Assembly: GCF_964355755.1 (NCBI RefSeq)
Contig: NC_092677.1
Span: 5,647,001 to 5,711,000 of the forward strand
DNA length: 64,000 nt
From: Antedon mediterranea
Taxonomy: Eukaryota; Echinodermata; Crinoidea; Comatulida; Antedonidae
Direction: 5' to 3'
Shown: one piece after another, positions 2,335 through 51,800 of the stretch
Layout of the letters: each line of letters begins with the position of its first letter
How positions within the stretch are numbered: the first letter of the stretch is position 1
The notes under the pieces: model-generated
What the model was told of the DNA's origin: nothing
The model's input: only the letters and a program-made list of their open reading frames with translations
The model's database searches: none
Position numbers and translations under genes: made by a program

Positions 2335-2646
2335 CTTCCTTAACTGTCAGCTGTGTAGAATCTTCCAGCTTCTTTTCTCCATCAACTGGCTTCACTTCAC
2401 ATTGATACTTCCCAGCATTACCAAGTATAAAATTCTTTATCTTCAAAGACAGAATGCTATTTTGGTAACTTGTTACTTCAAATCTGCCATCTTTAGAACC
2501 ATCCTTAATCTCTGTTGTGCCATCTTCCTTAATCTTCTTCCACTTGTAACCTGTTAATGGCATATCTGCTGGTCCATATCTGCACTTCATTTCAAAATTA
2601 CTGACACCACGTTCTGTTGAGTAGTTTGGATTTACCATTTCAATCC
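2335..2646 (-). CDS. Ig-domain exon (block A)
   Basis: A single Ig domain on one phase 1-1 exon (312 nt), with the B-strand Cys in FEMKCRY, the core Trp in YKWKK and the F-strand Cys in GKYQCEV. It is closely paralogous to 41813-42127. Acceptor ...TTTTGAAG at 2647 and donor GTAATG at 2334. The junction codon with the preceding half-Ig exon would be TGG rather than the TGC of copy B. Its neighbour downstream is a pseudo-exon, so this copy may be a relic. Confidence 0.65.
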
Positions 2647-2938
2647 CTTCAAAAAATGTGAACATTTTAGATAACAATTTTGTGCAGTTTGATTTCCATT
2701 TTCAAATAGATTAAGAACATACACATAGTAGTATTTTGTCAAAAAAGAATGAAGCTGACTTCATTTTAATAACCTTTTATAGGATATTTTAAATATTCTT
2801 TTCTGTATTCCAATAAAAATAAATGATACTGTTTTTTTCAAATATTATGTGCATATATTGTATATTTAACTTATGTCATCAACACTTTCTATAGAGTATC
2901 TTATAGGGATATTAAAGAAACAAATTATAAAAACTCAC

Positions 2939-3070
2939 AATAAACAGATAAATTGTTGACACCTCGATACTGCTGTCTACTGCCATCTATGCTGCAGTGG
3001 TACTCTCCTGAATGAGATCTCACAGGATTTGGAATTGTTAGGTTGATGCCTCCTCTACCATTTGTAGACA
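2939..3070 (-). CDS. Half-Ig exon (C-terminal half, block A)
   Basis: A 132-nt phase 1-1 exon that encodes only strands D-G of an Ig domain: ...LTIPN, then SGEYHCSI with the F-strand Cys, then NNLSVY. The N-terminal half with the first Cys and the Trp is not in this exon or the one before it. The paralogue is 42391-42522, of identical length. The acceptor is ...TTTTTTCAG and the donor GTGAGT. Confidence 0.65.
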
Positions 3071-22169: not shown

Positions 22170-25100
22170 TCAGTAATTCGTTGCATTATACAAACGTTTT
22201 ATGAATCGTTTTGGCGATCCACTTATCGGTATCTGTTTATCATTAATGATCTCTTTAATCAATTTATCTGTATCGTTATATCTGTCAATATTCCACCAAA
22301 ATTTGCGATCATTAGATTCGTGTTTTGTTTTATCAGTGTTGCGTTTGGCTGAAGTCGGTTTAGAATACGAAACTAAAACTTGGAAATGTCCTGCTTTAAA
22401 TCTACCTCGGTTTAATGTCATACTTGAATCATTAGGTGCTGTCATAATTAGATTAGTTTGTTCCTTAATTTGTTCCTCTTTCATTTGGAATGGGGCTGCT
22501 AATCCCATGTTATTCTCTACACAGTCAATGTAAGGTTGCAAGTTAAGGGGTTCTACTTTAGTTGGATGTGTAAGGGTATCTGATTGCAATTGGGCTGGTG
22601 TCCTATCATGTTCGTCTACAAATTCAACATTGGTTTCGTCATTTACTACATTAATGGTGTTTTGGATTTTATCGTTATTATCATCAGTTGGTTCATTCAA
22701 CAATTGTTTAAGTTTTTGTAGATGTGTAAAATTTTTGCGTTCTTTGGGTGTTCTCATAAAACAGGGTTTCAGTCTGTTATAATTGAATACGTCGCGAAGT
22801 ATTTCTCCTTTAATCGTCGCTAGGATGTAGTGTGTTCTGTCTAGTACTTCATGAATTACTAATGGTCCGACCCATTCTGCGGCGATTTTCTTTGAATTTG
22901 CCGTTAGTGATGATGATGTTGGCTTGTATAAATATACGAGTTGTCCTACTGAGTAAATTGGACTTTTTTCTAAGCGTTGGGAAATCTTTGAGTTTTGGAC
23001 GTTTTGTTGTGTTCGCTGTAATTGTAGCATTGTCTGTGAAATGTTTTGAAATTTCTTCTTGAGATGTTCAAAGTATTCTTCATAGGAATGAGACAATCCT
23101 GAAATAGGGTTAAATGCTAATGAGGTCAAACTTGGAGGTTGGCGGCCAAAAACTAATTCGTAAGGGGAGTGGTTTCCTAGATGTGGGGATGAAAACGAGT
23201 TATAAGCATAACATGTTGTTGATACAAATCTAACCCAATCTGTTCCGAATTGGTTAAGGTTGACTTTTAACAGGTCCGATACGGTGCGGATATGACGTTC
23301 AACTTGTAAACTACCGTGATTGTGGACGCTGATGATTTTCCTATCAATATTAAGGGTGTTACATAATAGTGTTAATAATTTTCCTGTAAGGGAGGTTGCT
23401 GCATCTGAAATAAGACGAGATGGGGGCCCAAAAATACTGATGACCTTTTGAATTAGTGCTTCGCAAATTGTTTCGGCATCAATGGATTTCAAAGGTACAC
23501 AAATCAAAAATCTAGTTATCTCATCACATACTACCATAATATGTTTAAAACCTGAAGGTGATGTTGGCATACTCTTAAAATCTAGACTGAGTGTATGAAA
23601 GGGACGGTAAGTTGCTGGTACTCGATCGTGTAAAGGACGTAATTTATCGGTTTTGGGACGAAATTGTTGACATCTAAGACACGCTTGGGTATAATTGTTG
23701 ACTTTCTCAAACATAAGGGGCATGTAAAATAATTTCCTAATAGTAAGGTAAGTACGCATCGTACCTTGGTGGATACTTAACAAATTGTCGTGATACTGAG
23801 AAATAATAGTCTCGGCTAAGTTTTCAGGAACAGCTAATTGCAATACAAATTCTCCACCTTTATCTTGGAAAAATAAACGGAATAGTAAACCGTTGCACAA
23901 TATGTACTGCTCTGACTTATTCTGAACTGCACGAGCTGCTTTCTTATCAGCTGGAAGGATATCATGAGCTAAATAATCGTAAACTGGCTTAAAAAATGGT
24001 GAAGTTTCTTGTTCAACGCGTAATTGTTTAACATCTATTGGGAGGTTATAATCTCTAATTATCTTTCTTTGAATAACATCCATTAATCTATCCAAGTCTT
24101 GTTGTTTTGGGATGTGTGCTGACTTAAATTCAGTTATGTTTGGTACTAGTGGTTTGGGAGATGTATACAATTCAACTGGTACATTTCGATGTGTAGTATC
24201 TTTGCTTTGCTTATTTTTGTCTACTAGTCGTTCCTCTGGAGGTTGTCGAATGTTTACATTACGTATTGGGGGTGGCGTTACGATAGGTGGCGTTATGATA
24301 GGCGGTGATCGATGTGCGTTTGTTTGTTGTCTCGTGATTATTTGTGGTGTAGCGGTAGGTTGAGGTGTAGGTCGCGTGTTTGTTGTCACTGGGTTTTGAA
24401 TAATGACAGGCGTTTGTTTGGGTTTGGGTTTATGTAGGTCAGGTATATTTATTCCCATTTGCTTGGCGTATGACCTTGTTACTGGTCTGCAAGTAGATGT
24501 GTTTGTAATCGGGTTAAGAGATTCAGTCTCTGTAATATTAAATGCAATGGGTACAACTTGATCAATTTCGGAATCGTCGTCACGAGGGGCTCGGGAGAGA
24601 AAATCTGCTAAAACTAATTCAGTTCCTTTCTTATAACCAATTTGGAAAATGTATCCGGACAATCGTAATATTAGTTTCTGTAAACGGGGTGTACATGGCT
24701 GATCTTTTGAATTCCAAATTTGTACAATTGCTGAGTGGTCTACGAATGCATCAAATTCGCAACCCTTTAGTAAATGTCGAAATGTTGAAACGTTAATGTA
24801 AAGTCCAAATAACTCTAATTCTGTGACGCTATATCGTTGACAGGCTTGTGGTAAGATTTTGGAATAATAACCTATTATGTGTTCTTTACCGTTTACTGTT
24901 TGTGTTAAATATGAACCTGTTGCGGTTCTTGAAGTGTCGCTATATAGCGTAAATCTACCTTCTTTTCTAGGCATTTGAAGAGTTGGTGGTTTAACCATTA
25001 ATTGTTTAATTTCGTCAAATGCTTTCTGGTGTTCAGTAGACCAACAAAATTTTCGGCGTTTGCTTGCGAGTGTGTGTAACGGACGTAAAATTGATTGTAT

Positions 25101-26879
25101 TTGAGGGAAAAAATGGGATACATAATTTACTGCACCAATAAATCGTTTAGTTTCTTTATGGGTTCGTGGGACTGGCAAATTTCGGATAGCTGCACACCTG
25201 TCGCCTAATGGTGTGATACATGCGTGTCCTGAAGAATTAATCAGGATGGTGTGTCCCATATATTGCACTTTATTCTTGAATAACTTACATTTCTTTGGAC
25301 AAATTCTAAAACCATTTAATTGTAGGGCTTGTAAAACGGAAACAAGGTGCTGCTTATGAGCAAATTTGTCTTGGCTAAATAAAATAATATCATCATGATG
25401 GGCGATACAGAATTCTCTAGAATTTGGGATTTCATTTAAAATTTCGTCAATCTTTGCTTGAAATATACCTGGTGAAACGTTTAATCCTTGTGCTAATCTC
25501 TTATAATAATAATGCTTTCCACCATGATATGAAGCTATACCTGTGTATTGTTGGGCATGTTCGGCTAATGGTACACAGTGGAACGCTGATTTCAAATCAA
25601 TTACGCTAAGAATCTGTGCATTAGCGTTACCTATTGTTTTCAGAGTTTCGGCTAATAATGGGAATGGGTGATTAATACGTTTTATCCTGGAATTTAGATA
25701 GCGAAAGTCTGTGACAACTCTTTTATCTTTTGAATTTTTCTTTGAAACAAGAAGGACAGGGGAAGTATACGATTGGTGTCCTACTGCTAAGATTCCTAAT
25801 TTGACTAATTTGTTCAATTCGGCCTCAATAACATGTTTGTCTTTGTTTGTCGCGAAGTATGGTCGAATAAAAAATGGTTCATCGTTAGAGAGGTGTATGT
25901 CAGCTTTGAAGTTTGGGCAGCTAGATAGTTCACCGTATAGTGAAAATGCATTTCTGTTTTGTTGTAAGGTTTTATACAAATCTTCTTTTTCTCTATGTGT
26001 TAAAACGCTGTCTGTTAAATCAACTTGTTTTCTAATTATTTCTTCCTCGGTTAAAGTTAGCAATGGGTCTGTACGTTCTAAATGTGGGTACTTGTTTGCG
26101 TTGTCATTGGTCAACTTTATTCTATCAATTGGTAGGTCGTTAGTAACTGTTACAAGGTTGGTTAAGTGAAGGCTCGCGATAGGTTGATGTGTATTTAGAG
26201 ATACGTTTCTGTTTGTGTTGTTAGTGATATCAATGTTGGTTTCTCCTCTATGTAATTTTACTAACATGTCTGATGGACAAAGTTTTGAAATATGGGTGGT
26301 TGCATGTAGAACAACATCAGAATTGCGTACGAAGGCGGGAACCCTTCCTTTTAATTTAACTGTTTTAGTATCACCGGGTTTAAGAAAAATCTTGTGTACT
26401 GGACGAAAGCTAAAAATCTTTGGTCTAATGCGAAAGGTGTTTTCCTTAAAATTTAAAGTACCGTCGAGTTCAGACAATGTTTCGGTTCCAAGTATCAGGT
26501 CAATACCTGTCAAATTTTTAAAGATTAATGCTGAAATTTTAAATTTGTATCCTTGGATAAATAATTCGAATTGCACTAAGTGGTTGGCATATAAGAAGTC
26601 ACCGTTACCTAATCGAAATTTAGTTGTGTTCACTTTAACTGGCTTTAGACGCGATAAATAAAGTGAGGAATTAACGTACGATTGTGAGATTATAGTTCTA
26701 GTTGAACCACTGTCAAATAAAGTTAAAACATTTCTACCATCTGGTAAATTTCCTTTAACGTAATTTCTGTCGTTAAGTAACAAATCAATATTATCTGAAT
26801 TCCCTAAGTATTTTGCCTTAAAATTGTCGTATTTAGTATGGGGGGCCAGATTATAGGCGGCATCTAGTCCCCTTTTTAA
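22170..26879 (-). CDS. pol: Retrotransposon Pol polyprotein
   Basis: About 1570 codons. Residue numbers here count from the TTG at 26783, because no ATG suits; the frame is open up to 26894 and overlaps the end of gag by -1. Protease: FDSGSTRTI (about 23-31). Reverse transcriptase: VVTDFRYLNSR, with the catalytic box AHHDDII (about 461-467) in place of YxDD. RNase H: about 610-745 (YSDTS, TELEL, ADFLSR). A Pro/Thr-rich linker at about 780-850. Integrase: HHCC finger, then a D,D-35-E triad (LDFKS, ISDAA, QVERH, about 1067, 1126, 1161). A GPY/F module (WVGPL, YNRLKP, about 1300-1340). The C-terminus (about 1495-1535) resembles a SAP helix-extended-loop-helix. No internal stops. Confidence 0.92.
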   Translation of the reverse strand, partial: LKRGLDAAYNLAPHTKYDNFKAKYLGNSDNIDLLLNDRNYVKGNLPDGRNVLTLFDSGSTRTIISQSYVNSSLYLSRLKPVKVNTTKFRLGNGDFLYANHLVQFELFIQGYKFKISALIFKNLTGIDLILGTETLSELDGTLNFKENTFRIRPKIFSFRPVHKIFLKPGDTKTVKLKGRVPAFVRNSDVVLHATTHISKLCPSDMLVKLHRGETNIDITNNTNRNVSLNTHQPIASLHLTNLVTVTNDLPIDRIKLTNDNANKYPHLERTDPLLTLTEEEIIRKQVDLTDSVLTHREKEDLYKTLQQNRNAFSLYGELSSCPNFKADIHLSNDEPFFIRPYFATNKDKHVIEAELNKLVKLGILAVGHQSYTSPVLLVSKKNSKDKRVVTDFRYLNSRIKRINHPFPLLAETLKTIGNANAQILSVIDLKSAFHCVPLAEHAQQYTGIASYHGGKHYYYKRLAQGLNVSPGIFQAKIDEILNEIPNSREFCIAHHDDIILFSQDKFAHKQHLVSVLQALQLNGFRICPKKCKLFKNKVQYMGHTILINSSGHACITPLGDRCAAIRNLPVPRTHKETKRFIGAVNYVSHFFPQIQSILRPLHTLASKRRKFCWSTEHQKAFDEIKQLMVKPPTLQMPRKEGRFTLYSDTSRTATGSYLTQTVNGKEHIIGYYSKILPQACQRYSVTELELFGLYINVSTFRHLLKGCEFDAFVDHSAIVQIWNSKDQPCTPRLQKLILRLSGYIFQIGYKKGTELVLADFLSRAPRDDDSEIDQVVPIAFNITETESLNPITNTSTCRPVTRSYAKQMGINIPDLHKPKPKQTPVIIQNPVTTNTRPTPQPTATPQIITRQQTNAHRSPPIITPPIVTPPPIRNVNIRQPPEERLVDKNKQSKDTTHRNVPVELYTSPKPLVPNITEFKSAHIPKQQDLDRLMDVIQRKIIRDYNLPIDVKQLRVEQETSPFFKPVYDYLAHDILPADKKAARAVQNKSEQYILCNGLLFRLFFQDKGGEFVLQLAVPENLAETIISQYHDNLLSIHQGTMRTYLTIRKLFYMPLMFEKVNNYTQACLRCQQFRPKTDKLRPLHDRVPATYRPFHTLSLDFKSMPTSPSGFKHIMVVCDEITRFLICVPLKSIDAETICEALIQKVISIFGPPSRLISDAATSLTGKLLTLLCNTLNIDRKIISVHNHGSLQVERHIRTVSDLLKVNLNQFGTDWVRFVSTTCYAYNSFSSPHLGNHSPYELVFGRQPPSLTSLAFNPISGLSHSYEEYFEHLKKKFQNISQTMLQLQRTQQNVQNSKISQRLEKSPIYSVGQLVYLYKPTSSSLTANSKKIAAEWVGPLVIHEVLDRTHYILATIKGEILRDVFNYNRLKPCFMRTPKERKNFTHLQKLKQLLNEPTDDNNDKIQNTINVVNDETNVEFVDEHDRTPAQLQSDTLTHPTKVEPLNLQPYIDCVENNMGLAAPFQMKEEQIKEQTNLIMTAPNDSSMTLNRGRFKAGHFQVLVSYSKPTSAKRNTDKTKHESNDRKFWWNIDRYNDTDKLIKEIINDKQIPISGSPKRFIKRLYNATNY

Positions 26880-26884
26880 AAATC
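26872..26884 (-). promoter_or_regulatory. Candidate -1 frameshift site between gag and pol
   Basis: The sense strand reads GAT TTT TAA AAA GGG G in the gag frame. A one-base slip at T TTT T converts the TAA stop into TTA AAA AGG and enters the pol frame. The downstream GGGG can pair with the CCCCCC at about 26841-26846 to form a small stem. The frame relation is seen directly; the slippage mechanism is inferred. Confidence 0.55.
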
Positions 26885-27841
26885 CTGCTGGTGGCTAGGG
26901 TAGTAATTGTTTGACTGTTGGTATGGGTATGGCGGGGGATAGTTTCCGTAAGAGCGGTTTTGTTGTCGGCAGTGCCTTGCTATGTGGCCTGGTTTCCCGC
27001 AGTAATAACAGGTTGGGGGAGGTTGTCTATATCTTGGGGTCGGTGGGGTCTGGAATCGGGGTTTGTATGGGCTTGGGCTTCGATTTCGTCTTGGGACATA
27101 ATTTCGGGTGGGGGAACGTGAGCGTCGAGTATCATCATTAAGGGATCGTTTTGTTGTGGCCATGTCTAACTTGAGAGAATTTATCTCATGTTGGAGCGAT
27201 TCGAGACTATTAGGCCTATCTGTTTCCTTATTGATATTGAATGAAACTTCCCGTGTGGCATCATCTACGGAAAGGTCAAGGTAATTTTGTGTGCTATTTA
27301 CAATATTTTCAATAGTGGCATCGATTGGGGTGGACATGGCTACAGCTGCTCTACATTTTGGTGGAAGGGTCGAAATAAATTTATTCTTTATCTGCTGGTC
27401 AGCGTATCCAATTCTGTCTGCGGCTTGTTTGATTTTGGTTAAGTGCTTTTCGGCGTTGTCGCCAGTGGTGTATGTAATTGAATCGTATTCTCTTATGTGC
27501 GCATAGATTGATTTGTTTTTACTAAACCTGTTGATGAATTGGGTTTTTAAGGATTCCAGTGAATCAAACTGCTTTCCCTCAATCCAGAGTCTAGCTTGGC
27601 CCTGAAGGCTACGTTTAAAAATACTTATTACATTAATTAATTGGGCATTGTTTACAGGGTTTTCTAACGTGTGGGCCTCAAGGTAGTCGGTAAACGATAA
27701 GTAATGTGCACTACATTGGTCGTGATCGGTTATGGAACCGTCATATCTTTTGGGAAGGAAATCGGTTTGTCTTAGGTGGGGCACGGGGTGAGGATTGACG
27801 GGCTCATTTAAAATTACTTCGTTATCAACAACGTCGACCAT
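26876..27841 (-). CDS. gag: Retrotransposon Gag protein
   Basis: 321 residues from the ATG at 27839-27841. The core (about 45-200) has the Ty3/gypsy Gag feel (YLSFTDYLEAH, WIEGKQFDSL, FINRFSK). It is followed by an Arg/Ser/Pro-rich stretch and one CCHC zinc knuckle, CYYCGKPGHIARHC (about 278-291), then a Tyr/Pro/Gln-rich tail. It forms the capsid and binds the RNA. The stop TAA (26876-26878) directly follows a TTTTT run that probably directs -1 frameshifting into pol. Confidence 0.92.
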   Translation of the reverse strand: MVDVVDNEVILNEPVNPHPVPHLRQTDFLPKRYDGSITDHDQCSAHYLSFTDYLEAHTLENPVNNAQLINVISIFKRSLQGQARLWIEGKQFDSLESLKTQFINRFSKNKSIYAHIREYDSITYTTGDNAEKHLTKIKQAADRIGYADQQIKNKFISTLPPKCRAAVAMSTPIDATIENIVNSTQNYLDLSVDDATREVSFNINKETDRPNSLESLQHEINSLKLDMATTKRSLNDDTRRSRSPTRNYVPRRNRSPSPYKPRFQTPPTPRYRQPPPTCYYCGKPGHIARHCRQQNRSYGNYPPPYPYQQSNNYYPSHQQDF

Positions 27842-32889: not shown

Positions 32890-33192
32890 TTATTTTAACA
32901 TAATTTTTTTGTCAGAAATCAACTGCATTCCAATGGTATAGCCCTTTGTTTCTGAACCATAACTGTAAACACATACTATTCCCTCTGCTTCTTCTTTCCC
33001 TTCTTTTACACTGTAGTAAGCTAGGTCAGATTCTTCTGCATTCACTGCACCTAGTGTACACAACTGAGACCAGGTTTTACAACCATCTTCACTTAGGTGA
33101 AGTGTAAGATCCTTATTTGTTTCATTTCCATGACTTGCCATTGCTATTTGGAAGAAGTCATCTTTCTTGGCTGGTAAACGTACAATACCACC
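32890..33192 (-). CDS. Sialidase-fold exon 7 (C-terminal)
   Basis: GGIVRLPAKKDDFF..., then NKDLTLHLSEDGCKTWSQ (a degenerate Asp-box), ESDLAYYS (aligning with the region of the catalytic Tyr in the family), then CVYSYGS... and a stop. The third active-site Arg expected just before DLTL is Asn/Lys here. Ends the gene; 100 residues. Confidence 0.8.
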   Translation of the reverse strand, partial: GGIVRLPAKKDDFFQIAMASHGNETNKDLTLHLSEDGCKTWSQLCTLGAVNAEESDLAYYSVKEGKEEAEGIVCVYSYGSETKGYTIGMQLISDKKIMLK

Positions 33193-36100
33193 CTAGATAA
33201 AAAAGCAATTTAAGGACAAATTATACAAATAATGAATTTATCCAAGGAGTAGCAGAGTTCAATACAACATTTTTTTTTCTACAGTATAACTTCTAATTCA
33301 TCAAATCTTTTATCAGAATGAACTGCTTTAATTTTTCTACACAGTAGTGATGACAACATTTTAGAATATGTACATTAAAATAGACAGGTAGTGTTATACT
33401 ATACAACTACATTATACAAATACTACAACTAGACAGACAACACTAGAGATACAAACTTTCATATTGTAAAGTACCTGGTATTCTGGATTTGCATCTTCAA
33501 TCTGGCCTTTATCACTGTATATATGGAAACACTGCTTAGAGCCCTCCAATGAACAGCTGATGTAAACCTGATCCTTAGCATATTCAACAACCTAATAAAA
33601 TCACAGGATATGATAATATGGCATTTAGAGATCTCTACTAAAATCTGTGTGAAAAAGTGATACCACAATTTCAAATAAACGCAATGGAAAATTCTTACTT
33701 GTATATGTTCACCTAAGGTAGCATCTGGTGGAGCATCTGGTGGTTTAACATCTGTTGTCCAGATGTCACCATTATCATCACTTGTCATTACAAATAGTCT
33801 TCCTGCAAAAACAACAGCACAAATAACTTAAATTAAAATAATTAAAATTAATGGTCAGATCAATGCCATAGTGTATGGAGAAATTTTAATTATTATATTT
33901 AAAATCTCTGATTGGTTATGTAGAGGCAGCTCCAGAGCCATTAAAATAAACTTGCATGCTTTAAAAATGTCTCACACAAGCTATAGTGACAAAGCATGTA
34001 ATCTGCATCTTTGGAATCAGCTTATCTGTAAAAATGCTTCTGTACTGTGTTCTTTGTAGAGCGCTATAATATCAATTGTTATTATTTATTACTTGTTCAG
34101 TTTACAAGAATAGTTGATGTAGATGTTGATATTAATTTCCTAAAACAATAAAAAGGCTTTGCCATCATCTTTTGTATTTTTTTTTAAGACTGGCAGATGA
34201 ATAATTTTATGTTCATAATTATTCAGAAACTACACTTTTCAAGAACTATCTCTGTACACTACTTACTATAGAATGAGTACACCCTCTACATTCTATAATT
34301 GTATGTAAAGGGTGAAATGAGGAGGACAATAATCTCTATATTAATTATGTCAGGAAACTAAGAATGAGAAAGAAATATGAATTGAATATTGTATGTGCAA
34401 TGTTTGAGGGCAATTATTTGACAACTCTTTCAATGCTACTTTCTTACGCTGATCATTTTTCAGCTTCAAAATTCCTGCAATAACCAATTTTCCAGAATTT
34501 AAGCATACACCATCACCTAAACCTGAAAAACACAATGTATTTTTTGTAAGAAAATCAAGAAAACAAATTTTCCTGATAAACATTATAAACCAAGTAGAAG
34601 TAAAAATAAAATAAAATAGAACAAACAAGAAGATGTAGATTCGGATTAAATGTTTCTTTTGCTTCATACCTATGGTAAATGTGTTTAGAATTGTGAATGA
34701 AGTAAAATGACAATTGTATATGTTAACAAATACAAAATAAGAAATGTTGATAAATTATGTTATGAGTTAACATAAAAGAGAAAACAATACAAGCAGAAAA
34801 TATGTTTATGATGATTTTTCAAAATATATTTTAAAAATAAAAAAATATGTAATGTAAGTGAAAATATATGTAAATGCAAAAAAAAAAAAAAAATGTATGT
34901 TAACGAATAAAAAATATGTATGTTAATGGATAACTAGAAAAAAAAAAATATGTAATAGGAGAAGAATACAAGCAAAGATTATATACTGTATAGATAATAC
35001 ATAAAGTTTTTAAAATTAAAACATGTTGATAAATTATCTTATGAGTTAACAAACATTTTTTTTTTTTTTTAAATCAAGCAGAAAATATATGTATGATGAT
35101 ACAAACATAATTTTTTTTAAATCAAATTATGTTTATGCTATAAAATATATGGAATAACATTAGTAGAAATGTATGTTGAACATAAAAGTATGTATTTAGT
35201 TGGAAAATAAACTATGTATTTAGTTGGAAAATAAATTATGGATTAAAAAAAAAAGAAGGTAAATACTCTAAACATAATATGTTTAACTGTAAATAAACAA
35301 AAAAAGTTAAGTGTTCAAAGATAACAATGGGAAAGAAAAAAAACTAAAAAAGAACTGTACTGTAAAATTATTATATTATGTATTTATGGAATAAAAGTGG
35401 GATGAACCCATGTAAGACAAAAAAATGACAATTGTAATGAAAAAGAAATATTGAAGTAACAAACCCAATAAAATATTTCCCTGTAAATCCTAATATAAAT
35501 CAAGCATACAGTATACTTACTTAGACTATCTACTGGAAAGCTTGCCAAATCTAGTTGTACATCATTTGGTCCTTTCCATTTCTCTCCATTATCATCAGAT
35601 TCCATCATCATTATCTTCCTCTCTTTTGTGTTTTTATTTTCTCTAACACACATGATAATTACCTTTCCATTGTTCTTATCGGTCACAATTGGTACTAGAT
35701 TGTGAATTCTGTGCAGTAAATAGTACAAAAACAAATTGTTAACACTTTCAATCATGTTAACCTTAGTTTTTTCCATTTTACAGTATTTCTTCCCTACCCC
35801 CATCCCCTCCCACCCCAAAAAAGTAAATAAATGGAGGAGGAATATAATTAGTTAATTTGCTATACAGATACAGATTTATGAAAAATAAATAAAAACACAA
35901 AAAAGATACCAACATCTTTTCTGAATTATAGAGATGGTTTTGGTGTAGCATTCTGACACTTTTATTTGATAACTTTTCAGCAACATCAATGATAATAATC
36001 TATATGCAAGAAAAATCCTCAACAACTGATTCTGCATTGCCAATTATCCCTCATGGAAAACACAATAGTTTTTAGGGCCATACCAGATTATTATTGCAAT

Positions 36101-39100
36101 ATCCCATTTCCATACCTATTATCCTTCTCATGTAAAATCACTCTTGGTTTTTCCCATTTAATCAACCTCTTTATGTTTATCTTTCCTCTTCTCATAATTA
36201 AATCTGATTTTTGCTCACAAAAGACAAAAAAATGAGAATTTATACAGATCACTGCAGGATATCTAAAAAATAAACAAAAAAACATCTCTATAATAATGTG
36301 TACTGTATATTCAAATTCAAAGGTTTATTATAATTATATATATTATTTTGTATCCTCCATTCAAAAGAGCTTCATGCTTGTATATTTAATGACCATACAG
36401 TAAAAAGAAATGGAACTTTAGTTATATGGGGAAAAAAGAAAGCAGAATAGAAGCTGTTACTAACATTTATACATTTAAAGTTTAAATATGTATTAAATTT
36501 TTTATTTTTTTTAATACAGAACATTGCTTTAAATTTCTAGATACAAACTAGTTTCTTATCGCATATAGGAAAAAATCTCTCTTAGACCAACAAAGTAGTA
36601 GAGAACTAAAAAAAAATGTAAATACAAACCTCTCTAATAAACAAATTTTAATTCCATATTAAAATATTCTGTGTAATATTATTTGTAGATGGTGGATAAA
36701 AATGGTCATAACAATTACCTGTAAATGTTTCTTGGTTCCTTATCAACTGCAGCAAACACATCCACTAAAAATAAACCAATTTTGTAGTCATAATTAAGTT
36801 AAATATTATTTTTGTATGTCATTTTGTATGAAATTTTAACAATTTTAACAAAAAATTCATTGCAATGCATTGCATATTGTTGATTTTGTCAGAATAATAA
36901 AGATTTATCCATCAATTATCTCATACATTTAATTATTGCAATGATTGCATAGTTAAATCTAAAAATCCAAATGAATTAGATCTGGTAACAAATTTGTATC
37001 TTTTTTAAATTTCCATACCTAAATTAAACAAATAAATTAACTTTTAAAAGGGTCACAAAAAGACAGTGACTTCTCTCATGAGGACCCTTAGAACAAAACA
37101 AACAAAAAGATCTATTGAATATTTACTTCTAAAGAAAATGATTTTTATACCATACACTAAAGTAATTTGCAAAAAAATTTCTTATTTCAAATAAACATCG
37201 CTCTAAAATATCAACCAAGTGCGTCATTCCTATACGTATGCATCACTTTACCTCTGGGAGTTATGGTAATATTTCTGATATTATTTTGCAGTGCGCATTA
37301 TTTTAAATGTATTAAAAATAAATAATAAATTTAATAATATGACTGTTAAAATGCTATGATTTTAAAATGTTACGCTGACAGTTGCATTTATTAGGGCTAC
37401 AATATATGTTTTGGGAAATAAACTACAGTACTATTCATCAGAATCCGAGAATAGCAATTCATTCACAGGATAGGGCATAGGCAGAAATTGTGAATTGAAA
37501 TGGTGAAGCTAATCTACTTTTACATTGTCAAAATTAAAAGTGGGAGATGGGGTGGGCTGGGCCACTCTTCACATTGTGTTACAGGTTACTTTTGAAAAGC
37601 AAATAACCAAAATTAGGGTTCTGGAGGCAAAAGCTGAAAAACAATTGGCTTACATTGTACACACAGGCTCGATGCTCTTGTATGTAATAGTTTATTTATA
37701 ATACCAATCTGTGTAAGTTCACAAATGTACTGTCCAGCATCAACTAATTCCACTTTCACAAACTCTAAGCAGGACCCATTACCATCAAAAGTTACATTGC
37801 ATCTTTCTTGTACTTCTTTGAATATTTTCTTCTGTTTTGATTTATCAGAAGACCATATCAATTTTTTTACTGAATTAGTCTTCTTATACCAACTGACGAC
37901 AATATCTTTATCCTTTATTTTATATTTGCAAGTTAAAGAAGCTTTTCCTCCAACTGATGTTGCAAAACTATCATCCATGTCTAAAACTAAAAGATAAGAT
38001 ACTGAAATACTTAATGAATTTCTCATTCATCTATTTCTATAATTCTATTCAGGCCATGTCAAATTACCATGGAAATGTGCATACCTGTAATTTATCATAT
38101 TGACAGACATAACGTCAATAAGGTTGAGAGGGTTTGTATGCAAACTTTACAGATCACACACAAATTGATATGTTTTACCAGCTCTAAATAACTCATAAAG
38201 AATCATAAGAACAGCGTGCTAGAGTTTGTTCTACAGGCATAATGAAAGCAACTTGACATAATTTCAGAAAGAATTTGGCTCAGTGAATGAACCACAATAA
38301 CACTTATATCAAACATACTTACAGCAATCCACAACTAATCTGCTTGTTGCCGAGTGGATTTCACTATCCTTTCCTTCTGTCACACATTCACAAAGGAAGT
38401 CACCAGCATCAGATTTTTCAACCTTAGAAATTTCAAGATAACCTGCCTGCTCTTTCTTACTAAATTTAACTTTAAATCTGCCAAAAACTGTGAAACTATC
38501 ATCAGCAAGTTTCTTCCATTTATCAGATTCATATTTATAGAAAATAAACTCTTTAATTGATCTTTGTATTGGTGATGTAGTAAAAGGAATCTTAAGGTTT
38601 TCTCCTTCAATAGACCGTACAATTTCTTTCATTTTTAAAACTGGATCTATAAAGACAACAAAAACATATATTGTAAGTAAATTACCAAAAAAAAAATATA
38701 CCACACAAAAATTAGGTTTTTTGTCAGATATTTTTTAAAATAGTATAAATTAGTATACTATAAAGACTACTATATAAATTAGTAGTTAATTGTTTATTAC
38801 ATTTTAATTATATATAAAATATAATATTATCATGATGATTTTTTTTTTATTAAATAATATTTTTTTTTTATTTATGGACATCATTTCATTCAAACAGGTC
38901 TTCAGCTGAGCTAAAGGATGATTATGTGTTTAGATGTTTGGATTCTGTTTTTCTTTAAAGAGATTAATGTTTTGAGATTTCATTGCTTACATAAAGAATA
39001 GGTAATTTCACTTCAATGACTTTATTTAGATTTACTTTTTTTCTTGCTTTCAAACGACATTTTATATTCAATTTAGCTATTGGCATTGTTCAAAGAATAA

Positions 39101-42100
39101 ACAATGATATAACACATAGAAATAAACACACTTGGGAGAATTGCATGGTGATTCAGAAAAAGAACATTGAATTATAGCAAAGAGCAAAGCAGGACATGAA
39201 ACTGTACATTCTCTTTTACAAAATTCTGTAAAATATAAGCACTATACACAGATGCTCGTTTGAAAACACTGCACTAAAATAAAAAAATGCCACACAACAA
39301 TATGCCAACAGATAATCCACAATAGTCAGGAATGAACTGAAAGGGTGAGAGCCAATGATGGATATAGATGAAAGCACTGAAAAAATGACAATGTACATAA
39401 AAATGACAAGGATTATTAGAGATCTTTTCTAAATCACAGCATAATGAGAGATATAAAGGTGAAGCTTTTATGGGTAACAAAATCACTGCATTGGTTAAAA
39501 AATACAAATACATACACTTACCAAATCTTTTATAAACAAAAGTTATGTTTACATTTTTGTGAAAATTTCTAAAATAAAGATACTGGACAAACCATGTTAC
39601 TGGAAATATTTATTTCTTAAAAATGTTCAAAAATAGGTATAGACAAACATCAATTAGTTTCTGAATCTGAAAGTCTATTCCTGGTGTTTCTTGGAATTTA
39701 GAAATTATTAGAAATTCTGACATAGTGAAGAAGATTAAACTTCAACAAAAATCAATATTTTCCCATTTATAATTAATATCATGTATATAATTTTTTTTTA
39801 TTGTGTTCTAAATCAAATCATCTTTGCTTCATAGTACACATATGATGTGGATAAATCATGAGGATCTTAATTTAAGATTGGTATATCAACATTATATTCT
39901 ATTACTTCATTCAAAGAAAACAAAATGTTTTAACACTGTACATTGTAAAGTATATAGAAATAAGGAATAAGGACCTCAAAGTGAGTATTCTTCTTCATAT
40001 TGATACTAATTATTAAATACTATTATTATTATTATTTATACAGATCAGAAATATAATATGGGTGATACCTGTTTTTTTTTTAAATATTTACCTACCAGAA
40101 TTTATAAATTTGCCTTTTAAAATAAAAATATTTGGCAAATTATGTATCATATGGTGGAAGGTATTGATTTCAAGTTAGTGTTCCTTGATATGCAAGACTA
40201 AATTGACCAAGACTTGTCTGTTTAAAATCAATAGAAATGTCTTTTCTTGAATTAAGTCATTTGACTAAATAAGTCATTTGACTAAATATGAGATTAAGTT
40301 GACCAGACTGTAATTAGGGATTAAGGGAGGATATCAATAGAGGTGCCTTTGTTTATTGATTTTTTAAATTTATTTTTATATACAGTGATAAAGTCTAATA
40401 AATAAATGACATTAATTAATATTAATATTAAAATATTTTTATTGATTGTCTTGATTATATTATATTGATTTCAATAACAATAAGAAGAAATTAAAGTTAA
40501 TAATTAACATCTTCAACATCAGGCAGATTGAAAGTGTAGGTCCACTTTTAAATTCTAACAATACAAAAGATAGTTTCCATTTTTAGGCTCTATTTAAAAA
40601 AAGAAAGACTTTAAAACAAAGGTTCACACTGATAAAAAATACAGTATACATAACACTTTGCTTGGCATTACCACCCACTACATGCAGTATAGTTCCAGAC
40701 CAAACAATCCAACAAATTATTAAGTTTCAAGAATGAATCCGTTCATCAATTCCAAACTAAAGTATTATTAAATTTGATCGACACTACCTCTGAAAAAACT
40801 TCAAGGAATGGCACACCCTTGGTAACCTCCTTAATACCAACATTCTGATTATGATCCTGTTGTATATCTGTAGATTTAGGTGTATTACCTTGAACTGTTA
40901 ACCTTCCAGAACACCTGTGTATTTTGTGTACTTTGTGTATTTTGTGTTGCTCCGTTTCTTTAAATTCAACTTCACATATGTAATTTCCTTCATCTCCAGA
41001 TTCAACATTCCTGATCTCAAGATATGCACTGCTTTCATTGACATATCCACATTGATAGCGTGATGTTGAATCAAGTGAATTTATTGATGTCAGCATCTTG
41101 TTTTCTTTACCTTCAACATGCTTATACCATGTCACATTGGACATTTCACCATAATTCTTAACATTTGTTAACTTCAGTATCAAATTAACATAATTCACAC
41201 TCTTTCTGGTAATAATGGAAGGAATATCCATTATGAGAGGAACTACAAAAACAAGACAAAACAAATCATCACAATATTGTGTATATCACAATTTGTTTGC
41301 AAATAATTAATAACAGGTATGTGCATGCAATACATATAGAATAGATACGATAAGGTTTCTTGTTTTATTACAACTGTGAATGATGACTTTAAGTTTCAGA
41401 TTGAAAAATCCATAGTTGTTCACACCTTCATGATAAACAGACTCTACAATGTTGTGTTGATGTCTAAGATGGGGTCACCAAGAAACCACTTTATCAGGTT
41501 CAATTGTTTTTTAATGATATTTATGCCCAGGACAGTCTTATAAGGGCCTAAATTAGTAAGTAAGTTGCTTTTTGAAATTTTGGTATTATAATAAGTTCAA
41601 TTTTTTTTCTCTTTTGTGGTGTAAACACCACTTTTATTCACATTAATATCATCTTTCATGTTATCACCATAAAATCATATTATTCATCACATTTTTGTTA
41701 TATTGTACATAATATTCTACATTTATTACAGTGAATTAGGCTGATGATAAATCAGTATATTCAGAAATAAGAACATTTCATCATCTTTAAGATTATTTCA
41801 ACATAAAATTACCTTCCTTAACTGTCAGCTGTGTAGTGTCTTTTAGTTCTTTTTCTCCATCAACTGGCTTCACTTCACATTGATACTTGCCAGCATCACC
41901 AAGTACAACATTCTTTATCTTCAAAGACAGAATGTTGTCTTCTTGGTAACTTGTTACTTCAAATCTATCATCTTCTTTACAATCCTCAATCTCTGTTGTG
42001 CCATCTTCCCTAATCTTCTTCCACTTGTAACATGTTAATGGCATATCTGATGGTTCATATCTGCACTTCATTTCAAAATTACTGTTACCTTCTTCTGTTG

Positions 42101-42522
42101 AGTACTTGGGAGCTGCCATCTCAATGCCTTAAATATATAATATATATAATAATATATATAAATAATAAAAATATATATAGTACAAATATTAATTGAATGA
42201 ATTTATGACAAGTATAATATAATATTGTACTACGGTTGGGGCAACATTTTTTGTTACTTGATTTTCTCATCTTTATCTTTTCAAATTAATTAATTTTCAG
42301 CATATCACTGGGCAGTTTAGGATATATTCTGTGCTTGTTAATTTATATATTATGATTAGCCTACTAATTTAAATTCAAAATAAAACTTACAATAAACAGA
42401 TAAATTGTTGACACCTGGATGCTGCTGTCTACTGCCCTCTATGCTGCAGTTGTACTTCCCTGAATCAGATCTCACATGATTTAGAAATGTTAGGCTGATT
42501 CTTCCTCTACCACTTGTAGACA
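32890..42522 (-). CDS. Ig-sialidase fusion gene (gene span, 5' end open)
   Basis: Exons 42522-42391 (half-Ig), 42127-41813, 41242-40889, 38646-38323 and 37980-37654 (four Ig domains), then the sialidase-fold exons 36764-36719, 36262-36116, 35708-35521, 34522-34448, 33802-33699, 33591-33475 and 33192-32890. All Ig exons are phase 1-1; the last donor is phase 1 and the first sialidase acceptor also phase 1, so the chain is one open frame of about 810 codons. The sialidase (GH33, six-bladed propeller) signature includes NIYRYPA, and SDDNGEKW and SDDNGDIW Asp-boxes. The fusion rests on phase and order; no transcript is available. No leader exon was found between 42522 and 42839, so the start is unresolved. 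Confidence 0.65.
33475..33591 (-). CDS. Sialidase-fold exon 6
   Basis: 117 nt, phase 0-0: VVEYAKDQVYISCSLEG..., IYSDKGQ. With the end of exon 5 it gives GEHIQVVEY, like the family segment holding the catalytic Glu. The exon contains no Arg, so the second Arg of the triad appears lost. Confidence 0.75.
33699..33802 (-). CDS. Sialidase-fold exon 5 (Asp-box)
   Basis: RLFVMTSDDNGDIWTTD, a clear Asp-box (SxDxGxxW), then a Pro/Asp-rich loop and GEHIQ. Phase 1 to 0; donor GTAAGA. Confidence 0.85.
34448..34522 (-). CDS. Sialidase-fold exon 4
   Basis: LGDGVCLNSGKLVIAGILKL..., matching the G-x-G-x-x-L...LVVPAY-type strand of animal sialidases. Donor GTAAGA; frame joins exon 5 as ...NDQ|R|RLFV. Confidence 0.7.
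34740..35240. repeat. AT-rich imperfect repeats in intron
   Basis: TTGATAAATTATGTTATGAG near 34747 recurs (TTATCTTATGAG) near 35026. A 26-bp unit GTATTTAGTTGGAAAATAAA is tandem at about 35190-35240. Confidence 0.55.
35521..35708 (-). CDS. Sialidase-fold exon 3 (Asp-box)
   Basis: RIHNLVPIVTDKNNGKVIIM, then MMMESDDNGEKWKGP, an Asp-box in its normal place after a blade's first strands. Phase 2 to 1; donor GTAAGT. Confidence 0.85.
36116..36262 (-). CDS. Sialidase-fold exon 2
   Basis: With exon 1 it completes IYRYPAVICI, the position of the family's RIP/YRIP motif. Then FFVFCEQKSD, resembling the LLAFAEKR strand, but the usual Arg after it is Ser. Phase 2-2; donor GTATGG. Confidence 0.8.
36719..36764 (-). 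CDS. Sialidase-fold exon 1 (Ig-sialidase junction)
   Basis: 46 nt: LDVFAAVDKEPRNIY plus AG. It enters in phase 1, exactly the phase of the preceding Ig donor (37654), and supplies the first active-site Arg (NIYR). Confidence 0.7.
37654..37980 (-). CDS. Ig exon next to the sialidase domain
   Basis: A 327-nt phase 1-1 exon. V-like Ig: ASLTCKYKI (Cys), VVSWYKK (Trp), and DAGQYICEL (D-x-G-x-Y-x-C). Donor GTAAGC leads in frame to 36764. Confidence 0.85.
38323..38646 (-). CDS. Ig exon (Cys-variant) of Ig-sialidase gene
   Basis: 324 nt, phase 1-1. It has EKSDAGDFLCEC (F-strand Cys) and GENLKIPFTT where the B-strand Cys is replaced by Phe, with no obvious core Trp. This is a disulphide-less Ig-like domain. 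Donor GTAAGT. Confidence 0.75.
38800..40888. other. Large intron, no feature seen
   Basis: AT-rich intronic DNA between two Ig exons; no coding or repeat signature recognised. Confidence 0.4.
40889..41242 (-). CDS. Ig exon of Ig-sialidase gene
   Basis: 354 nt, phase 1-1. VTWYKHVEG (Trp) and GDEGNYICEV (F-strand Cys), with the B-strand Cys position a Leu (LILKL). A KIHKVHKIH insert precedes the last strand. It is the intact paralogue of pseudo-exon 935-1278. Confidence 0.82.
41813..42127 (-). CDS. Ig exon of Ig-sialidase gene
   Basis: 315 nt, phase 1-1. FEMKCRYEP (Cys), YKWKK (Trp), GDAGKYQCEV (Cys). Closely paralogous to 2335-2646. Confidence 0.85.
42391..42522 (-). CDS. Half-Ig exon of Ig-sialidase gene
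   Basis: 132 nt, phase 1-1: strands D-G only (RISLTF, SDSGKYNCSI, NNLSVY). It begins 317 bp downstream of the receptor B stop. A joined frame from the receptor B terminal exon (donor A|GTAAGT) would be open. Confidence 0.7.
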
Positions 42523-42838: not shown

Positions 42839-42866
42839 TTACTTACTTGAGTAAGAAGTTTTAGAT
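42839..42866 (-). CDS. Terminal coding exon, copy B
   Basis: RSKTSYSSK then TAA. As in copy A, the stop sits in AAGTAAGTAA, which doubles as a potential splice donor. Acceptor TTTTTCAG. Confidence 0.6.
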
Positions 42867-45800: not shown

Positions 45801-48800
45801 TAATAAATGAAGTTTTATATGTTAGTGAAAAGTTATTTTGTGTAATTTTGAATATAATGGGTAAATATGAACAAAAGAGCTTTGCTGGAAGTGTATCTTT
45901 ATCATAAAAAAAATCCCAATAAAAATAAAAATCAAATACCAAAAACATTACCTTTCATTCAAGTCTTTAGCTAGAACATGAAATAAAAAATAATACAACA
46001 GTTAGACAATACAGGTGTGATGATGGTATAATAGCAACAAAAAAATACAAAACTATATAGTACAGTAATTATTAGGATTTTGAGTGGTCATTGTCTTATC
46101 AAATATCAAACAACAACATTGGGAATAGGTTATGGAAATACACTGGTACATTTATGACAGTACAAAATAACAATTAAAAGTCCAACATTCTTGTTTATAA
46201 CAATTTAAACTTAATCGGGTGTAAGTGTAAGACGGCATCTTAGCGTATGATCATTTTTTAATTTGAGAATAATGTGGTAGTAATATTTTATTACAATTTT
46301 AAATAGCCTAATAATAATTTAAAGGTCTTTATCTTGAGTGGAAACATGTTTGCTATGCGTTTTATGTAAATGGTCATAAGAAATAACATAGATTCTATAT
46401 TACCATTACCACTTGTCTGTGTAAATTGGCCATTAGAGGAAAGTATTTTGTTCAAAGTGAAGAATAAACAGAAAAAGATCAGAAAAATTATATCAATAAG
46501 AGTCATTACAAAGTACCAGTATGTATTATAAATACAAACACCACAAGTACAATGGTAATCATTAATACATATATAATACAATGGATACATTTATAATAAT
46601 GGATACATTTATAATACAATGAATAAAAATACAATACAATGGATACAAATACAATGAATGTAAAATAACACAAAGTACTGATAGTATATTAAAGTAATTG
46701 AAGCTCAGTCTGCAATTGAAAGAAAACCTGTAATGGGTATAAAAGCATAACAAACAATAATGACTACTACTAAAAAAGAAAGTGCAATCTATTCTATTAA
46801 ATATTTGTTAAAACAATGGCGTAATGGCTATGAGCACTCACTGGCTTAGTCCAAGGGTTCCTAAGCTTATAAGGGCTCCTGAACTGCGCCCAGACATAAC
46901 AATTTGTCAAAAAAAAGGCTAAAATGCCTCAAGGCCTCCAGCGTTTGAGAGCCATTTTGGGTCGCTAAACTGCGTTACAAAAAAATTAATAAAAAGATAT
47001 TCATTTATGTTAATATACAATAATTGGTACTTTTTCTATACCAACAAACAATTATATTTTTTTCAATCAATCAATCAATCAATCAATAAACTTTGGAATG
47101 TATAGAATTATAGAGTACTACTACATTTTCATGAATGAAAGTGATGATTACAAATAAAATATCATACAACAGATTCAAATAGACTGTATAATACAATAGT
47201 TCAACAAAGCCAGCTTGCACAACGTGCAGTTGAAAAGTAAAAAGCTGAAATTACAACACATTAGCATCATTTAAAATATATATATATATATATATAACCA
47301 AAAAAAATATATCAAAATTTGAGATAATAAAAGGAAGAAGGCGGGTTCCTAGAAAGCTACAGGATCTTGAGTTGTGGTGTCTGTGAGACAGAGGAACGAA
47401 GGGACAAATCAACAGAAATATCCAGCTAAAGCATGCATTTGTAAAAATTTGTCAATTCTACTGAAGTAAAAAAAAATGCATTTAACAAAACTTTTCTACA
47501 TTTTTTTTTTGGAGACTTTCAAATTACCTTTAGGGTGCAACACTCCTTGAGAAAACTCAAAATAAGGTGTCTGTTCCTCGGTTCTTATTATTTTCGATTT
47601 ACATGTACTGGGACGCAAATCTAGGTCAACATATTTTATCTCTTTCTATAAATAGAATAATTGCAATAATAGAAAAAACATGTATCTGTAAACTATCCTT
47701 TTATACCAATATATAAATCCAACAAGGAGATTTTCAAATGGTTTGTTACCATATTTGCAATTGATACCATTGGTATCTCATATTTTAAAACATTTTAACT
47801 AACTTACAGGTTCTGCAGCTGGTTTTTCCTTTTGATCAGTTTCCGATATTCCTATATTGAAAAGAATATCCACTACAATTAAGTATAATCAACTGACTAG
47901 ACTACTCCTATATGATGAATAGATTTATACAAATTAAAGAAATTACTAATAAATAAATTATGCGCTCAGAGGGCGTAAAATTATTCTTCATATTGAAGAT
48001 AAAGATACAGATAACTCAATATTTTAATAATCATGACGTCACCAATATATTAATTTTCCTGAAATTTAATAGGTATTTTCTACTAATATTTAAACCAAAA
48101 TATTAATAATTTGAAAATTGTTGACACTATCTATGATACTACTACCAATGATATTGTAAACCAACGATGTCGTTGGTTAAAATGCCTTTTCTGAATATGT
48201 AAACAAATTAATATAGTTGTCAATAAAAATATAAAACAAGTCTTCTATTCTTTATGAGAGTATTGATAGAAGTTACACTGTTTTCAATCTACATTTCAAA
48301 ACAACTATATACCTTTCTTAACAAGCTTTCCCTGGGATACTTCCATATACGGTGTTTGTTCTTCATTACTTATAATCCCTCCTGAGGAGGTACTGGCTTG
48401 AAAATCAAGATCCGCATATTGAAGCTCTTCTTCCTAACATTTTCATAAACTAATCAATATCTCTTTTAAAAAAACAATCTAAAATGGACAAATTAACTAA
48501 TTGCCAGATTTTGAATAGACAAAATAATTCTTCTATCTCAAACGAATAAAGAAATGAAAATTAAACAAAAATGTTTTAAGGGATTTTGGTGTATATTCTC
48601 TAGCAAAAAAGTCAACTTTGCTAAGAAATTATCTTTAATTTGCAAAAGTGTCCGTCTAAAAATCTAAAATACCTTGTGTTTATCTTCAATTTCTGATATT
48701 CCTATAGTAGCATATAAAAGAAAATTAATTAAAACATGATAAAATAGATATACCACTTTGAATGAATTACTGCATGTATGTACTATAATTATTTACTACA

Positions 48801-51800
48801 TATATAATACTAGTCTATAACTTATTTTACTTTACATTTAAAATGCAATTAAAATAGTTTCAGGTAGCATATACAGTACATTAAGACTGTAAATTAATAA
48901 ATCAAAAACAAGATCTACAATCATGCTTTCTACAAAAAAAAAAGTTGTTTGTAATATAAATATCGTTTGTATTATTACGTTTGTTAGTTTCGATCAATTA
49001 AACACAACATTTAAATGTTAGAAATTATCTATTCTACAAAATGAATATACACAAAAGAAGATGATAATTATAAAGTATAAGACATTATAAAATGCAACAC
49101 ATCAAACCAATCAACTATGACTCAGACTAAATGCTAAATATGTTAGTCTAAAAAAGAAAAAAAATATAATAAATAAATGATATGCTAATCCAATACTATA
49201 AAATTAATATACCAATCAGAACAATTATATATTTTAAAAAACCGTCCACTTACAAAAATAAAAGCATGGGTAGATTAAAAAGCGGGACAAATAGGTTTTG
49301 TGGTTACATAGGACAAATGTTAAGCTGTCTATTTCTACACTATAACTGCAATACTAATTCATTATAATTAGTAGAAAAAAATCGGCAGCATAATGAGAAA
49401 GGTTAGTAATGTATGTTTGGTCAGTTGTTAGTAAAAATTACACACATTGCAGTGAAATCATCTAAGAACTGTCCACAATGACAAAGTTAAGCATACATTT
49501 TGCCAAATGATATTCTTCCAAAAATACACTCACTGGGTGAAGAATAATAAAATGAAGTGATTTTTTTGGCATTTTTTTCTACTTTGCTACTGTACTTATT
49601 GTAAATAAGCAGCAAAATTGTCTTTAAAAATATGACATCACCAGTAGACTTTCTGCCACGCTGTCCAACTTCAGCATAAGTGACAGGTTGTTCAAATGAC
49701 ATAGAAGAACCAGATTCAACATTTTCATAAATTATTTCGTCCTGTAAATACATTTTGGCCAAGTCACAATAGTAATAATATCCTGGACTTATAAAGCGCC
49801 TAATGTTGTGAATGACCGGCGGCTTGCAGCGTAACTGGGCTAAATTGTGCACAAGTGAAACAGGGGTAGATGGCCAAGTACAATGGGGTAACCACTCCTG
49901 GGATGCACTGGATTCTCGCAAACCAGGTTTGTAAACTGGACATCCAGTCCAAAAAGACTAATTTTTACCAATGAAGAACACATTTTGTTTTGCGGCACAC
50001 CGGCCTTATAGCACTTAACCACTTGAATCAACATTGCTTTGATTATTATATTCACACGTTTAAAAAAAACTTAATTTTAATACTGGATATCTAGATAGAC
50101 ATAGATCATATTTTCTATAAATGCTTCAGAATTGATGCATATGTCTTTACACAATTATTGTCATATAAATTGGGATTACATAACTTTAAAAATAGCTATA
50201 ACAATATATATATTCAAACATTTTTTGTGCATGCCACTGCGTTTTTAAAGTTTTTAAATAAAGATTCTTACTGTATAACCGATGTTGAAGGATCCTCCTT
50301 AAATAAATATAGAACAAACAGATATTGTAATATTAACAACTTCTAATACAAAAATAAATAAACCTGTACTTCATTAGCAATTTTAACAATACAATAATTA
50401 AATTTCTGAGACAGAATAGTTTGCTTGATTGTGTTTGGCCACTCTATAACTACTCCCTTAACACACCCTGCCCCCATCCCCACTTCACCGTCCACCTCAG
50501 TAATAACTGCTGGTTAATTGAGAAAAATAATTTGTAAATGCAAACATTGACAGCTTTAGAATTCACTGTATCGTAAATTATTGTAATGTTTACTGTAACT
50601 TAACAATCAAATAAAAACAAATTCTACAATAAATGTATACTCTATTGCTCATAAAGAGTCAGAGAAACCTAAACAAAATAATAAGTTGATTGATTGATTG
50701 ATTGATTGAAGTAAGAGATATACATTCAACTCTATTGAAACAGGACTTTTTGGAATGCATATCAAGTAAAAAATTAATCATGTTCCACCTGAAGCTAAAA
50801 AAAAGTAATCAAGAGAATAAATAAATAGCAAAGTTTATACTCACCAGATGTTGCTTGATGTTCTGCTAAAAGTTCACTACCTTCATCAACAGGATTTGTC
50901 TTCGAAAACAAAATTGAAACAGATTTTACATTATTTTAAGCATGTTTTAAAATACTGTAATGTTTTTTTTCAATATGACAGTAAAATACGTAGAATAAAT
51001 CAATTCTTTTTAAAATCAACATTATTAATTGTTGGTTGTTTGATGTGGTAGGTAATTTCTTGCCTTGACAGTTGTAAAATAAGATGATTTTGAGATTGAT
51101 AGGAAATTCAGAAAACGTAAATAAATAGCAAGATAGCAAGGCATAACATTGTAAGCATATATGCTATATTTATTATCTATTTAAGAATTTGTAGAAAAGT
51201 GAAAAAAATACAATATACTGTATATTAACATACAAAATAACTAGACATAATTTAATGTTAATGACACAAAATAATGGTAGAATTAATTATTGACCTAGCA
51301 TTTTAAGAGTAAGGTTTGGCAGTAGATATTTATATACGACAGATATACCAATATGATATAAAATAGATAATTATTCATATATGGTCTTTTCAAGTTAGTT
51401 GATACTATTCTCATAGTACCAACCTTTGATGTTTCTCCAGATTTAGGAAGTGCAGCAGTGTCTTCAGTTTCTGCAGACTGGTTTGGTGAACTGGATTTGA
51501 TTACAACAAGAGGAACATCTGCACCATCAGGTTCTTCTCTTTCACTGCCGTTCATGCGACTCTCTTCACCACTTCTACTACCACTGCTGTTGGGTTGACA
51601 CAATAAAAGAAAATAATATTACAACACAGGTACCTCTGTACCATCAAGACATTCTCTTTCATTCACCCTCAGCTGATATTCTACACTCCTCTGTTGCTAC
51701 TGGGTCAATATAATAAACAGTTGTTTTGTTGTAAATTGAAATCAAATTTATTGTGAGAGTTTTTCATACTTTGATTAAAATTAAAAAAAGTAAAAATAAT

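Follow-up and report, generated by a model that had tools for sequence, protein, structure and literature searches.

A predicted chain of immunoglobulin domains and a degenerate sialidase-like propeller, one member of a gene cluster in the crinoid Antedon mediterranea

A stretch of 64,000 nucleotides from the genome of Antedon mediterranea (contig NC_092677.1, here C8; C8:5647001-5711000, termed the window) carries on its minus strand, from position 42522 to 32890, a predicted gene in which an array of immunoglobulin (Ig) domains precedes a sialidase propeller. The gene belongs to a clustered family, and its product is best explained as an Ig chain with a degenerate propeller that probably acts as a non-catalytic recognition module in innate immunity. 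This reading is drawn from genomic sequence. The Ig array and the sialidase fold appear to be joined in one open frame, the active-site residues have largely been lost, and the arrangement recurs in related loci.

By splice-site and frame reading, the Ig-sialidase chain consists of 12 exons: one half-Ig exon, four Ig exons and seven sialidase exons, S1 to S7. The half-Ig exon (42391-42522) encodes the second half of a V-type Ig domain, and is followed by Ig2 (41813-42127), Ig3 (40889-41242), Ig4 (38323-38646) and Ig5 (37654-37986), all of phase 1-1. The acceptor of Ig5 is either 37986 or 37980, with phase 1 either way, and its donor is expected to splice to S1 (36719-36764), an exon of 46 bases and phase 1-2 which carries the YR of a YRYP motif. 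There follow S2 (36116-36262), S3 (35521-35708) with the Asp-box SDDNGEKW, S4 (34448-34522), S5 (33699-33802) with the Asp-box SDDNGDIW, S6 (33475-33591), and S7 (32890-33192), which includes the stop codon and has a near Asp-box, SEDGCKTW. Exon borders are AG/GT and the phases fit throughout. An initial sequence-only reading of the window had given these coordinates, the strand, the exon count, the 37654/36764 junction with its phase 1-to-1 fit, the YRYP motif and two strict Asp-boxes, and all of these were confirmed; its estimate of about 810 open codons compares with 811 codons and no stop in the spliced reading. The stop frequency in the gene's own introns is 0.071. At this frequency the chance of an open frame is ∼3.5e-11 for the 326 sialidase codons and ∼1e-26 for the whole chain, values that flatter the case because the exon ends were picked as open.

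The window and its flanks, stitched to 344 kb, contain five minus-strand tandem units, termed A, B, C, R and L. Unit R is that of the window, unit L begins in the window and ends outside it, and A, B and C lie on the opposite side. Units A, B, R and L share the order of half-Ig exon, further Ig exons and sialidase exons; unit C displays no sialidase exon at E 0.01. The half-Ig and Ig2 exons of unit L are at 2336-3070 of the window (minus strand), and its Ig4, Ig5 and S1-S7 exons are just outside. With exon ends placed by hand, the sialidase exons retained by R, L, B and A read open, and any length difference between the copies is a multiple of three. S4 is 75 bases long in all four of these units, and S1 measures 46, 46, 49 and 46 bases in R, L, B and a further locus, L033, respectively.

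A domain search of the translated chain agrees with the assignment made from the letters alone. Each of the four full Ig exons has a V-set or I-set match (Ig2, V-set, 1.9e-8; Ig3, I-set, 1.4e-5; Ig4, V-set, 9.5e-5; Ig5, V-set, 1.8e-7), and three of the four pass the Pfam cut-off, the exception being Ig4; the half-Ig exon matches V-set at 0.0037 and is also below the cut-off. For S1 to S7 the match is to BNR_2, the profile of the sialidase propeller, at E 1.2e-15 and 58 bits, and in the four units read (R, L, B, A) this match is found with 49-58 bits against a cut-off of 31.4. The C-terminal 144 propeller residues alone reach only E 0.21, and thus it is mainly the preceding part and the colinear full-length match that support the fold assignment. 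A profile built from the four sialidase copies matches 21 PDB sequences at E ≤0.01, most of which are named sialidase; the C-terminal half alone gave one chance-level PDB match. Human NEU2 aligns with a local score of 85, compared with a mean of 31.9 and a maximum of 49 in 200 shuffles, which indicates homology above chance. A search of NCBIfam gave no matches, and a single-sequence AlphaFold prediction of exon S7 (mean pLDDT, the predicted local confidence score, 43.7) was too poor for a structure search.

The sialidase exons of R, L, B and A were compared by alignment to NEU2 and to two NEU1-like genes from contig C5 of this genome, L003 and L004. Six key sialidase residues, in NEU2 numbering, are R21, R237, R304, Y334, E218 and D46, and all six are reported to be fully conserved across five animal sialidase subgroups, in a study that admitted only sequences having them (PMC3431349). 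R21, the first Arg of the triad, is retained in all four copies, and the (F/Y)RIP motif keeps its Arg in four, its Pro in two and its Ile in none. D46, the acid/base Asp, falls in a loop of S2 that is deleted in every copy. At the R237 position in S6 there is Ser or Leu, at R304 in S7 there is Asn or Asp (Asn in the window's copy), and Y334, the nucleophile Tyr, also in S7, is replaced by Glu, again in all four copies. E218 aligns to Gly, with an adjacent Glu in R and L only. At least four of the six catalytic residues, among them two of the three carboxylate-binding Arg, are therefore gone from each aligned copy. Four settings of a pairwise alignment of R with NEU2 agree that R21 is kept, D46 absent and Y334 replaced by Glu, and place the partners of R237, R304 and E218 differently. 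Within the aligned pieces the NEU1-like genes keep the catalytic residues: L003 retains R21, D46, R237, R304 and Y334, and L004 retains R21, D46, R237 and R304, the aligned pieces of both excluding the E218 exon and that of L004 also the Y334 part. Loss of catalysis in the propeller is, on these alignments, highly probable. Because of the residue losses, the propeller is termed sialidase-like here and not an active glycoside hydrolase family 33 (GH33) enzyme, and the word sialidase in the initial reading does not stand in its enzymatic sense.

The genome-wide distribution of these exons was determined by searching the source genome of 354 Mb in 18 contigs; all match counts are lower bounds. 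Exon S7 gave at least 22 matches, which merge into 20 loci, 18 of them on contig C8 (4.78-5.76 Mb), one on C3 and a weak one on C2. Exon Ig5 gave at least 17 matches. An Ig5 exon of its own is located upstream, on the same strand and within 12 kb, at 13 of the 20 S7 loci, and conversely S7 is present within 12 kb downstream of 15 of the 17 Ig5 matches; under random placement the expected linkage is ∼0.0003 per match. The linked locus on C3 is the most independent one, since it is on another contig. Locus L033, one of 13 C8 loci outside the stitched stretch, has Ig4, Ig5 and S1-S7. The Ig5-S1 introns of R, L, B and L033 are 889, 274, 254 and 273 bases long, with phase 1 on both sides at each of the four loci read; a phase match at this junction has a one in three chance. 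The claim that the Ig array and the sialidase fold form one chain is upheld by the pairing at 13 of 20 loci and by the recurring junction phases, and is very probably correct on this genomic evidence. As far as exon matches define it, the Ig-sialidase chain is one member of a clustered family, with at least 18 loci in ∼1 Mb of C8 and one on C3.

The two remaining Ig5 matches are on contig C4 (C4:12719970 and C4:12730359). These Ig5-like exons show 58% identity and have no S7 match within 12 kb.

The sialidase part has a ratio of nonsynonymous to synonymous substitution rates (dN/dS) of 0.62-0.80 over six pairs, with Z (dS above dN) of 1.3 to 2.5, and this suggests some constraint. The values for single exons are rough where exons are short: pooled dN/dS ranges from 0.46 (S2) up to 1.09 (S4) for sialidase exons and from 0.49 to 1.21 for Ig exons, three receptor Ig exons compared between tandem receptor copies in the window give 0.87-1.36, and in the pair R and L alone the half-Ig exon has 2.6 and one exon with an immunoreceptor tyrosine-based inhibitory motif (ITIM) has 0.08. 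As estimated, the pattern of dN/dS values is one of fast ectodomains and a slow tail. dS varies much among exons, and thus gene conversion may act.

The receptor with this tail constitutes the first half of the same tandem unit (47528-58096, minus strand), and its exons are partly conserved in unit L. It begins with a signal-peptide-like exon (58096-58048), which is followed by three Ig exons and a linker, a transmembrane exon (53273-53202) and ITIM-like tail exons (52094 to 47528), in which motifs such as VTYAEV and LQYADL occur; the neighbouring ITIM receptor of the sequence-only reading was thus recovered, its Ig domains, ITIM-like motifs and transmembrane exon included. The Ig-sialidase chain is placed behind an ITIM-type Ig receptor in units A, R and L. 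An additional exon, V1a (52368-52628, minus strand, phase 1-1), has a 59-residue Lys/Arg-rich stretch and then a Cys-rich hydrophobic segment. It adjoins the first transmembrane exon in all five units, including B and C, and may be a second transmembrane exon through which the Ig-sialidase chain is reached. Within the stitched 344 kb, receptor Ig exons were not found in unit B, nor ITIM exons in unit C. A second tandem copy of the Ig receptor, with an ITIM-like tail, is present at 6403-15400 of the window.

In the interval that separates the last ITIM exon from the half-Ig exon, units A, R and L share two stretches with splice signals, the mini exons c10 (45952-45970) and c11 (42839-42866), both on the minus strand; what else aligns there is AT-rich or simple-repeat sequence. 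Mini exon c10 is in phase with c9 and c11. At c11 the sequence CAAGTAAGTAA is conserved in three units (R, 42839-42866; L, from 3353 down; A, near 125480-125449), although c11 is absent from the list of A against L alignments at E 0.05. If read through, c11 ends in Ser-Lys-stop, and its GTAAGT is also a donor of phase 1 from which the frame would continue into the half-Ig exon. The same sequence can therefore serve in A, R and L as the end of the ITIM tail and as a splice donor into the half-Ig exon. A version of c11 with 21 bases, in which the tail ends in SVYKW-stop, was rejected, as the splice donor rules it out. V1a was also tried as the missing first half of the half-Ig domain. The joined sequence scored 25.5 or 23.9 bits with V-set, and two of nine shuffled V1a sequences placed before the same second half scored 25.3 bits, above 23.9; the gain is therefore no evidence.

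No start exon conserved among the copies was found for the Ig-sialidase chain. In unit R, four ATGs within 47524-42523 start frames that resemble signal peptides and have a fair phase-1 donor, and two Ig introns contain weaker ones; the ATG frames before the half-Ig exon are in no block common to A or L. An in-frame ATG also reads into Ig5 across the Ig5 acceptor. The secreted or surface location put forward earlier stays a proposal, as no signal peptide is assignable to the chain. For the 5′-end the candidates are use of the chain as the receptor gene's alternative 3′-end, a two-pass protein via V1a, or a first exon of its own.

Several other explanations can be weighed against the Ig-propeller recognition module. 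Two neighbouring genes might be present, an Ig gene that ends after Ig5 and a sialidase-like gene that starts in the intron 37653-36765. That intron in R does have an AATAAA at 37392, though such sites are frequent in AT-rich sequence, and seven of the 20 S7 loci have no Ig5 (the C2 match, unit A and a degenerate copy beside L are included). Exon S1, however, has no in-frame ATG, start-exon candidates with a phase-1 donor number none in the introns of R and L and one weak one in B, and introns of 254-274 bases at three of the four loci leave scant room for a gene start. Together with the linkage of Ig5 and S7 at 13 loci, one of them on another contig, this makes two genes quite improbable. Still less probable, to the point of being very remote, is an active GH33 sialidase with Ig adhesion domains. 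The retained YR of the FRIP motif, the strict Asp-boxes and the Glu beside the E218 position in R and L would fit such an enzyme, but the deletion of the D46 loop and the replacement of R237, R304 and Y334 in every copy would not, given residues described as invariant in animal subgroups by PMC3431349, whose set was pre-selected for them.

The genes may also be decaying relics of a fast-turnover cluster that are no longer expressed, which is improbable, if less so than two genes. Signs of decay are present: unit L has an in-frame TGA in Ig3 (window 1232-1234), a linked Ig5 match (C8:4911014) carries five stops, stops occur in five of the 22 S7 matches, where some may be natural ends, and a degenerate sialidase copy with stops, L005, directly follows unit L (window coordinates -5685 to -7672). 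The missing start exon and a sialidase dN/dS of 0.6-0.8 are also in keeping with decay, as is unit A, in which neither Ig5 nor S1 was found and the stretch before S2 resembles, by eye, a retroelement remnant. An explanation that overlaps with the favoured one, and is rather unlikely, takes the Ig-sialidase chain as no gene of its own: the ITIM receptor gene would use it solely as an alternative 3′ half. It draws on the recurrence of c10 and c11, on their phases, which continue into the half-Ig exon while c11 also reads to a stop, and on the receptor Ig, transmembrane and V1a exons of R, which are all phase 1-1; phase agreement is weak evidence, because phase 1-1 is common in Ig genes. Against it, unit B has an open Ig-sialidase half, yet its receptor Ig exons were not found and its ITIM exon is broken, and domains spliced after the ITIM tail would face the cytosol. 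The evidence for the favoured reading has limits as well: Ig5 and S1 of unit A were not found in the stitched 344 kb, and the S7 loci are related by duplication and not independent, which weakens the linkage statistic.

In the proposed mechanism, the propeller would no longer cleave sialic acid, and together with the fast-changing Ig domains would act as a non-catalytic recognition module, lectin-like or protein-binding, the pair perhaps serving innate immune recognition. That the propeller binds glycan is put forward tentatively and rated lower than recognition as such, because only one of the three sialic acid-holding Arg is left. That the receptor's transcription unit also expresses the chain, by way of an alternative 3′-end, is a possibility somewhat short of even; the receptor form would then end in ITIMs and the other form in Ig domains and the propeller. 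It is also conceivable, if unlikely, that one unit gives two products, a one-pass ITIM receptor or a two-pass Ig array tipped with a dead propeller. In the two-pass form V1a would be included and the ITIM exons skipped, such that the chain returns to the outside, perhaps as a diversified sensor of glycans or microbes; in R every joint of this form would be of phase 1. If true, the use of a sialidase fold as a non-catalytic part of an Ig multigene family would constitute a new route of glycan or self/non-self recognition, and would provide a testable case of how immune families arise when an enzyme fold is combined with Ig arrays. It also bears on the question of whether one switchable unit encodes both inhibitory signalling and recognition.

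Elsewhere in the window, a single open frame of 1574 codons is present at 22173-26894 on the minus strand, possibly a mobile element, and a large imperfect palindrome at 20102-20852 matches the reverse complement of itself at 73% in an alignment of 787 columns. An Rfam scan of the window gave no matches at gathering scores.

Among the literature matches listed, none showed an animal protein that combines Ig domains with a sialidase propeller, most subscription journals being outside the coverage, and predicted proteomes may already contain this architecture under no name. The animal GH33 sialidases NEU1-NEU5 resemble the chain in belonging by sequence to the Asp-box propeller family, in the Arg of (Y/F)RIP and in Asp-boxes as found in S3 and S5; unlike them, the chain has lost most of its catalytic set, has Ig domains in front and is part of a clustered family. 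The trypanosome trans-sialidase family has inactive members, and a propeller without catalysis may bind rather than cut. Compared with these inactive proteins, the Antedon chain has also lost two carboxylate-binding Arg, and Ig domains precede its propeller. The sialidase of Micromonospora viridifaciens likewise combines a propeller and an Ig fold in one chain. That protein is enzymatically active, has a galactose-binding domain and carries its one Ig module behind the propeller, whereas here an Ig array stands before the propeller and most of the catalytic set is lost. The Siglecs and paired ITIM receptors of vertebrates are Ig receptors in tandem whose ITIM tails are conserved and whose ectodomains change fast, and Siglecs bind sialic acid via a V-set Arg and not via a propeller. 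The predicted receptors of the Antedon units resemble them in their tandem arrangement, in ITIM-like tails, and in having rapidly changing ectodomains and a conserved tail.

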